Below are positions 35,850 to 36,960 of a stretch of DNA of 64,000 nucleotides, piece by piece (within the stretch, counting starts at the first letter, position 1; each line of letters begins with the position of its first letter). The notes below the pieces were generated by a model. It made no database searches and was not told the DNA's origin. It was given only the letters and a program-made list of their open reading frames with translations. Origin of the DNA: Bdellovibrio sp. 22V. GTDB taxonomy: Bacteria > Bdellovibrionota > Bdellovibrionia > Bdellovibrionales > Bdellovibrionaceae. The stretch is from NCBI RefSeq assembly GCF_030169785.1, contig NZ_CP125854.1, positions 1,550,001 to 1,614,000 on the forward strand, read 5' to 3'. The position numbers and the translations under genes were made by a program.

Positions 35850-36791
35850 ATGAACGATCTTTACTCTCTTTCCCAGCTAATTAAAAACCATCCTCTGTAC
35901 ACGGTGCATAGAGACGCCATTCACCAGCTTTATCTTCGCTTAGGACGTGCGCAAGAGCTGACCGCCGACGTTCTTTTGTGTGAACTTAAAGAACTGCTGC
36001 CAGAGCTTTGCGAAGCACTTCAGAAAAATCATGCGCTTTTTAAAAAACACTGCGAAGAAAGCCTGAAGTTAAAAATGCAAGGAATTCAGCTCGTGGTTTA
36101 TGGTGAGGATCTTTTTCCCGCGGCTTGCTATTGGATGTCCGAACCGCCGCTGACTCTGAGTTATTGGGGATCGCCGGCTTGGCTCACGCAAAGAACACTG
36201 GCGGTTGTCGGAAGTCGCGAACCTTGTTTTGATTCTATTCAATGGATGGAAAAAGAGTTCACGACTTTTTGTGACCAGGAAAAACCTTGTGTGGTCAGCG
36301 GGGGAGCACGCGGTGTAGATCAAAAATCCCATTCGATTGCTTTACGCAAAAGTGCAAGCACGGTGATTGTGCTGCCCTCGGGACTGGGGCAGCTCTATCC
36401 GGAAAGTCTGTACGAGTGGAAAGACTCTGTGTTGAATGGCGGCGGTTGTTTTTTAAGTGAATATGTCTTTGAGCAAAGAATGCATAAGCATCTTTTTCAT
36501 CACCGCAATCGCCTGATTGCGGCTCTGGGCAAAGCGACATTGTTAGTTGAAGCCAAAAGACGCAGTGGCACTTTGATCACGGCACAACAGGCGCTGCAAT
36601 TGGGACGTTCTTTGTGGGTTGTTCCCGGTCATCCGCAAGATCCGCATTTTTTAGGAAGTTTGGATTTGCTGGCGGAGGGAGCAGGGCTTGTCCGCGATGC
36701 TCAAGATTTATCCATGTATTTTCGTGCGGAACTCAGCGGCGAAAACATGTCCCCAGTAGGGATAGCGGACTTATCGAAGGTCTCGCACTAG
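35850..36791 (+). CDS. dprA: DNA processing protein DprA (Smf)
   Basis: 313 residues from the ATG at 35850; a GTG at 35808 overlapping the LysM stop would add 14 residues that are read through the hairpin. The Rossmann-like DprA core shows LAVVGSREP, VVSGGARGVDQKSHSIAL, VIVLPSGLGQLYP, HHRNRLIAALGKATLLVEA, SGTLITAQQALQLGR and VPGHPQDP. DprA takes incoming single-stranded DNA and loads RecA during transformation. The normal C-terminal winged-helix domain is essentially absent. It is near the comEC genes. Confidence 0.93.
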   Translation: MNDLYSLSQLIKNHPLYTVHRDAIHQLYLRLGRAQELTADVLLCELKELLPELCEALQKNHALFKKHCEESLKLKMQGIQLVVYGEDLFPAACYWMSEPPLTLSYWGSPAWLTQRTLAVVGSREPCFDSIQWMEKEFTTFCDQEKPCVVSGGARGVDQKSHSIALRKSASTVIVLPSGLGQLYPESLYEWKDSVLNGGGCFLSEYVFEQRMHKHLFHHRNRLIAALGKATLLVEAKRRSGTLITAQQALQLGRSLWVVPGHPQDPHFLGSLDLLAEGAGLVRDAQDLSMYFRAELSGENMSPVGIADLSKVSH

Positions 36792-36856
36792 CCCTAGTGG
36801 CTGTGCTAAGTGACCAAAATCTCTCAGAAAAAAATGAAATGTTCTAAAAAAATCTT

Positions 36857-36885
36857 TTGCAAGGCCATCGGATTGCCCCTAACAT
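36857..36885 (+). promoter_or_regulatory. Predicted promoter of the candidate small RNA
   Basis: TTGCAA (36857-36862) and TAACAT (36880-36885) are exactly 17 bp apart, each matching the sigma-70 consensus at four of six positions. A start near 36892 would begin a transcript just before the three-way fold. No open reading frame follows on this strand. Confidence 0.5.
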
Positions 36886-36891
36886 TTGAGT

Positions 36892-36960
36892 TAAGGGAGG
36901 GGCGATGTGGTCAAGGATGACCGTGGTAGTATGGATGCTACTGCATCGCTCTAATTTTTC
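36892..36960 (+). ncRNA. Candidate CsrB/RsmZ-like small RNA with two GGA tetraloops
   Basis: The sequence folds as a three-way junction. A closing stem pairs 36900-36907 with 36944-36951 (GGGCGATG / CATCGCTC). Hairpin 1 is GGTCA-AGGA-TGACC at 36909-36922. Hairpin 2 is GTAGTA-TGGA-TGCTAC at 36926-36941. TAATTTTT follows and could end transcription. Both loops present GGA; CAAGGATG resembles the known CsrA/RsmA target consensus. It lies between convergent dprA and lptF. It might instead be an elaborate terminator; expression is not shown. Confidence 0.5.

Follow-up and report, generated by a model that had tools for sequence, protein, structure and literature searches.

What, if anything, is encoded in the short interval between two convergent genes, dprA and an lptF/lptG-type gene, in the 64,000-nucleotide stretch of the Bdellovibrio sp. 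22V genome analysed here (the window, from whose first letter all positions are counted)? A first-pass annotation, made from the letters of the window, had read this interval as a gene-free gap holding a promoter-like pair, a compact fold with two GGA-bearing loops and a terminal U-tract, and had suggested a short RNA that could sequester CsrA through two sites. The question has three parts, namely whether there is an RNA gene at this locus, whether its loops resemble CsrA sites, and what might control its expression.

The locus and its transcription signals

The gap extends from the end of dprA (+ strand, 36791) to that of the lptF/lptG-type gene (- strand, 36970), and it is indeed devoid of genes. 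Within it, the candidate small RNA (36893-36959, + strand) is about 65 nt long, with a start predicted at 36892-36894 from the position of the -10 element and an end in the U-tract. The promoter-like pair with 17-bp spacing can be read directly from the sequence, much as the first-pass annotation had it, in the form of a -35-like TTGCAA (36857-36862, +) and a -10-like TAACAT (36880-36885, +). The former is kept in the alignment, and TANCAT or TACACT occupies the place of the latter across the Bdellovibrio family (hereafter the family) and the order; across the genus the two hexamers and the distance between them are conserved, and the order shows the same in a looser form. When scanned with a generic sigma-70 consensus, 36857-36885 does not pass as a promoter, so that the support for this candidate comes from its conservation. 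A sigma-54 promoter was also considered and discarded, its GG-N10-GC signature being present in one species and not conserved.

Abutting the -35 on its upstream side, the family alignment reveals an A-rich element (36828-36856, +) that is UP-element-like and might possibly be another site. Its block AAAATGAAATNNTCTAAAAAA is conserved in the family and its AAAATGAAATGTTCT part recurs in family f6; this appears to exceed the specificity of a simple UP element. At the opposite end, AATTTTT directly follows the closing stem, and the U-tract of the putative intrinsic terminator (AATTTTTC, 36953-36960, +) thereby lies just where it had been placed from the sequence; a U-rich tail is seen in nearly all homologues.

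Secondary structure and covariation

Both the minimum free energy and the centroid structures obtained with RNAfold are exactly the three-way fold that had been recognized in the first-pass annotation, with its AGGA and TGGA loops (-26 kcal/mol, z = -3.6), and 0 of 200 shuffled sequences were as stable. The predicted stems measure 5, 6-7 and 8-10 bp. The closing stem pairs GGGGCGATGT (36899-36908) with GCATCGCTCT (36943-36952) on the + strand over 8-10 bp, of which up to three are G-U. Hairpin 1 (GGTCA-AGGA-TGACC, 36909-36922, +) has 5 bp, all five with compensatory changes (5/5), and a loop of the A-N-GGA-N type with its GGA at 36915-36917. Hairpin 2 (GGTAGTA-TGGA-TGCTACT, 36925-36942, +) has 6-7 bp including G-U pairs, compensatory changes at 7/7 pairs, and a second A-N-GGA-N loop with its GGA at 36933-36935. 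A third GGA (36896-36898, +), contained in GGGAGGGG, is outside the loops in the single-stranded 5' part; it is invariant in the family, and a G-run stands in its stead in family f4. An RNA from the minus strand was considered as well, which also folds (z -4.4), yet the promoter and the U-tract point to the plus strand.

Among 37 close relatives, double-sided changes are found at 4 pairs. In a wider set of 69 distinct sequences, 93 double-sided changes were counted, where shuffled controls gave 17 (sd 3) and slid ones no more than 28, 94.6% of the cells pair, and every pair of both hairpins shows double-sided changes; these figures, like the counts of GGA given below, rest partly on sequences found and aligned with the covariance model, and the alignment, being fitted to the model, is biased towards it.

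The pattern of change also bears on the notion that a short peptide is encoded in the hairpin region, with GGGAGGGG as the ribosome site of a frame beginning ATG TGG TCA. A start codon does follow a ribosome-site-like sequence here (MWSRMTVVVWMLLHRSNF), but the substitutions are evenly spread over the three codon positions (9, 10, 11) and change residues with no synonymous bias, single-base insertions and deletions occur, and the frame runs on through the terminator. To our reading the pattern of change already refutes the peptide, to which we assign a vanishingly small probability.

Phyletic distribution

A blastn search with 103 bases recovered the RNA in all of the family genomes searched (37/37). 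The first covariance model, built from 37 sequences, detected the RNA in 62 of 66 family genomes, once in each, and in 91 of 369 genomes of the phylum. The second, built from 70 sequences, gave convincing scores in about 100 phylum genomes, belonging to the families f1, f4, f6 and f10 of the order and including one genome of f12 (G153, E 4.8e-9), which was counted as a homologue; weak matches of this model in f12, f26 and f29 (E ~1e-4 to 0.05), the majority of which fall far short of the model in length, were left out. Such a covariance search in related genomes was one of the checks that the first-pass annotation had proposed, and both its yield and the excess of double-sided changes (93 against 17 expected) speak for the structured RNA. 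A pattern scan of 84,980 species returned 83 matches, of which 54 score at least 39 bits with the covariance model and carry nearly always Bdellovibrio-type titles, with a few vague ones (Proteobacteria or Deltaproteobacteria bacterium); the remaining matches, including all those outside the phylum, reach at most 18 bits or fall below the report limit and were taken as chance. Phage records contained no match to the RNA, and our literature searches of open-licence papers retrieved no earlier report of it.

In the family the neighbours of the RNA always include dprA, together with lptF either directly or one gene further, while other families differ. As synteny is limited to the family, the RNA seems to be a unit of its own rather than a leader, and would act in trans; judged by sequence only, the locus is non-coding, has its own promoter and terminator, and is located in trans. 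Taken together, these comparisons argue strongly for a genuine RNA gene of about 65 nt that has been kept for a very long time across the Bdellovibrio-type predatory bacteria.

One feature of this conservation calls for separate consideration. Across the whole order the sequence of the closing-helix core, CGATG/CATCG, stays almost the same, which points to constraint and is not by itself proof of pairing. This near-invariance appears to go beyond what a scaffold or a terminator would need, and CsrA binding does not seem to account for it. It would be in keeping with a structured RNA serving a different protein or machinery, such as a housekeeping RNA, whose GGA loops resemble CsrA sites by convergence. 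Against this, some complete genomes, G063 for one, have lost the RNA, so that it can hardly be an essential housekeeping RNA, and no Rfam family, CsrB and RsmX/Y/Z included, provided a match at the gathering score, with chance matches alone up to E = 10. We accordingly regard an unrelated structured RNA as improbable. The same search places the RNA outside all named Csr RNA families in Rfam.

The GGA loops as potential CsrA sites

The first-pass annotation had held that homologous gaps keeping the stems while losing the GGA would speak against its proposal. In the family both loop GGAs are kept in 41 of 41 aligned members, with the stems drifting around them; beyond the family the first is kept in 28 of 29 sequences, the second in 24 of 29 and both in 23 of 29. 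The second GGA is lost in four sequences of f10 and one of f4, the first in a single sequence. In most of f10 the stem of hairpin 2 stays without its GGA while the GGA of hairpin 1 stays, making this a lineage with one loop site. The matches of the covariance models are biased in this respect, as these models contain the GGA; the pattern scan of genomes demanded the second GGA only. In that scan the first GGA is present in 52 of the 54 true copies, with 18 of the 20 that come from outside the family having it, and in 1 of the 26 chance matches. When the distant set is anchored on CGATG and left ungapped, the first GGA forms the information peak (0.9, 1.1 and 0.9 bits), and most of the positions flanking it carry 0 to 0.3 bits.

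Within the family the loops have the form A-N-GGA-N, in which N is A, G, C or T, the last base is T, C or A, and the GGA is fixed. RsmE recognises an ANGGAN hexaloop, and the SELEX site is RUACARGGAUGU (PMC7652899); the variation of the loops around a fixed GGA would fit both of these. On 76 distinct sequences, RNAfold presents two loop GGAs in 57 and one or more in 68. The starts of the two GGAs lie 18 nt apart in the window RNA, 17-19 nt in the family and 15-23 nt elsewhere. One CsrA dimer is known to bridge sites 10-63 nt apart, the optimum being given as >18 nt (PMC7652899), and the 17-19 nt of the family fall inside this range. The RNA hence offers at least two loop GGAs of the A-N-GGA-N type, the second being missing in most of f10.

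The G-rich loops and the 5' GGGAGGGG could alternatively pair with C-rich stretches of mRNAs or with the 3' end of 16S rRNA, in a base-pairing small RNA in which CsrA is uninvolved or merely assisting. The RNA does stand alone, its unpaired G-rich 5' end is invariant, a conservation otherwise unaccounted for, and CCUCC-type sequences would be complementary partners for both GGA and GGGAGGGG. However, the neighbours of the fixed GGA vary freely in the loops, which suits recognition of A-N-GGA-N by a protein better, and f4 has a G-run in place of the 5' element. We deem a base-pairing role of this kind unlikely, and favour display of the loops to CsrA.

CsrA, FliW and expression in Bdellovibrio bacteriovorus

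A canonical csrA was identified in 334 of 369 genomes of the phylum, usually as a single copy, and a strong RNA without csrA was seen only in the incomplete assemblies G061, G220 and G244. The CsrA of the window genome belongs to PF02599 and resembles the solved CsrA and RsmE (chains 2jpp and 2mf0), so that the host encodes the RNA-binding fold. Its csrA adjoins fliW. FliW occurs in 118 of 141 genomes of the order and coexists with the RNA in most genomes; in the reduced genomes G240, G254 and G255, csrA and the RNA are retained and FliW was not detected. Two family members, G063 and G082, present the opposite picture of natural losses that lend themselves to comparison, having csrA and fliW and no RNA detectable by the model at the dprA locus or elsewhere. 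In the relative G020, contig 2, which is a second contig or replicon, encodes an additional ribonucleotide reductase as well as a divergent second FliW (79365-79736).

In G006, which we take to be B. bacteriovorus HD100, the covariance model places the RNA at 2,374,941-2,375,011 (-). The c-di-GMP-I riboswitch of G006 lies inside the published coordinates of merRNA (PMC3627812), so its coordinates agree with those of HD100. Karunker 2013 (PMC3627812) gives a list of eight small RNAs, confined to the attack phase, and the RNA does not appear in it; a phase-independent or growth-phase RNA would fit.

Upstream palindromes and their probable link to NrdR

In most of the family a palindrome lies about 100 bp upstream of the RNA (CACTAGCCCTAGTG, 36786-36799, in the window), and a weaker distal box, CAGTAGGGATAGCG (36754-36767), is placed 32 bp further upstream in the window. 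Some members have this second copy 31-32 bp further up, and in many species it is weak or not seen. The palindrome CACTANNNNTAGTG, of the form CACTA-N4-TAGTG, has a single exact match in the 3.6 Mb window genome. In G006, G025 and G066, which represent three genera, another exact match occurs upstream of nrdA, the gene for the large subunit of class I ribonucleotide reductase; in G000, G007, G011 and G020 the nrdA box is CCCTAGATATAGGG. This is the form found in the window genome, where it is not identical to the box of the RNA. In the genus Bdellovibrio the NrdR-like box of nrdA comes after a conserved leader element resembling GAGATCGATACCCGCCTTATTGATGAGGCACC, which could be a further regulatory element.

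NrdR sites have been described as two 16-bp palindromes ~31-32 bp apart (PMC2892513; PMC12051234). NrdR is encoded in 11 of 11 genomes checked, and this, along with the match at the nrdA promoter and the agreement with the published tandem spacing, indicates that the boxes are probably those of NrdR. In sequence terms, then, the locus has the tandem boxes 31-32 bp apart, the likeness to nrd promoters and the NrdR in the genome that characterize members of its regulon, and the RNA promoter of the family is probably under NrdR control via two tandem boxes. As NrdR is also known to act as an activator, namely at topA of P. aeruginosa (PMC4409342), its effect on the RNA promoter could be of either sign. 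No exact box of the CACTA-N4-TAGTG type was seen in families f4, f6 and f10, and no conserved copy of a GacA-form site (TGTAAG-N6-CTTACA) was apparent by eye in the aligned 150 bp upstream. Our searches of open-licence papers found no earlier link between NrdR and CsrA.

The palindromes might instead belong to another regulator or to dprA, an alternative that concerns the control step only. Their distance from the RNA, about 100-130 bp, is unlike the situation at nrdA, and the centre of the RNA box is variable, whereas nrdA boxes have GATA/GATC-type centres. Conversely, the identical palindrome, otherwise rare in the three genera concerned, recurs there upstream of nrdA, the tandem spacing is 31-32 bp, and the position of the box is fixed relative to the RNA while the dprA stop shifts by 60 bp. 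We consider this alternative rather unlikely, though clearly worth retaining, and continue with NrdR as the preferred candidate.

A possible one-dimer CsrA sponge

On the whole, comparison lends good support to the short, two-site, CsrA-sequestering RNA suggested in the first-pass annotation, through covariation, retention of the GGAs and the presence of CsrA in nearly every genome, and we think it likely that the RNA works like a Csr/Rsm sponge. The proposed mechanism envisages an independent, trans-acting RNA of ~65 nt with two A-N-GGA-N hairpins, spaced by 18 nt, and a further GGA in its 5' part. Such an RNA would bind one CsrA dimer in bridging mode and thereby withdraw CsrA from the mRNAs that it targets, with the closing stem and the U-tract doubling as the terminator. 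In the Bdellovibrio family NrdR, probably acting at its two tandem boxes, would tie CsrA activity to the dATP/ATP state, and FliW would feed a second, flagellar signal into the same CsrA. Transcription, CsrA binding, sequestration, and the NrdR link with its sign are what we infer from these comparisons. As two to three sites are few for a sponge, the RNA would have to be abundant. Counting against this explanation are the absence of the RNA from the published attack-phase list, the scarcity of the second GGA in f10, the near-invariance of the closing-stem sequence, and the mismatch of the nrdA box in the window genome. Somewhat more speculatively, and with appreciable doubt on our part, we propose that the Bdellovibrionota possess a minimal one-dimer sponge beside FliW, and that in the family NrdR puts this sponge under a dATP/ATP signal, such that the supply of DNA precursors, in cells replicating in prey as against the non-replicating attack phase, would set CsrA activity.

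Comparison with known systems

The closest parallels are CsrB/CsrC and RsmX/RsmY/RsmZ of Gammaproteobacteria, with which the Bdellovibrio RNA shares a stand-alone nature, a putative intrinsic terminator, A-N-GGA-N loops and regulator sites upstream of the promoter. Unlike those RNAs, which have many hairpin sites, it has two in ~65 nt; it has a three-way junction closed by an invariant helix, and no relation to them by Rfam covariance models; and it occurs in Bdellovibrionota, where FliW is present and NrdR-like boxes take the place of the GacA/UvrY site. McaS and GadY of E. coli, which have two or more GGA and also bind CsrA, are similar in being small RNAs with few GGA sites, but they are base-pairing RNAs, and no pairing role is known for the Bdellovibrio RNA. 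Within the genus itself, merRNA of Bdellovibrio bacteriovorus is likewise a proposed sponge RNA, yet it is 445 nt long, contains a c-di-GMP-I riboswitch, and differs in locus and ligand.

The FliW-CsrA partner switch has the same target protein, with the difference that FliW is a protein acting allosterically, whereas the Bdellovibrio RNA would be an RNA mimic coexisting with it. RNA sponges and FliW have been called mutually exclusive routes of CsrA antagonism (PMC7366521), and the joint action of FliW and small RNAs in any species is undetermined according to another review (PMC7652899). The RNA, csrA and fliW are found together in most of the predatory order, rendering such joint action directly testable in a laboratory strain. 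Should the proposal hold, the RNA would rank with the smallest Csr sponges and, within the literature searched, would furnish the first case of one CsrA under the double control of an RNA and FliW, and likewise of a small RNA linked to NrdR, with the boxes offering a route from nucleotide pools to the attack/growth switch in predators. The coexistence with FliW and the probable control by NrdR are the two features of this system that would come as a surprise to specialists.
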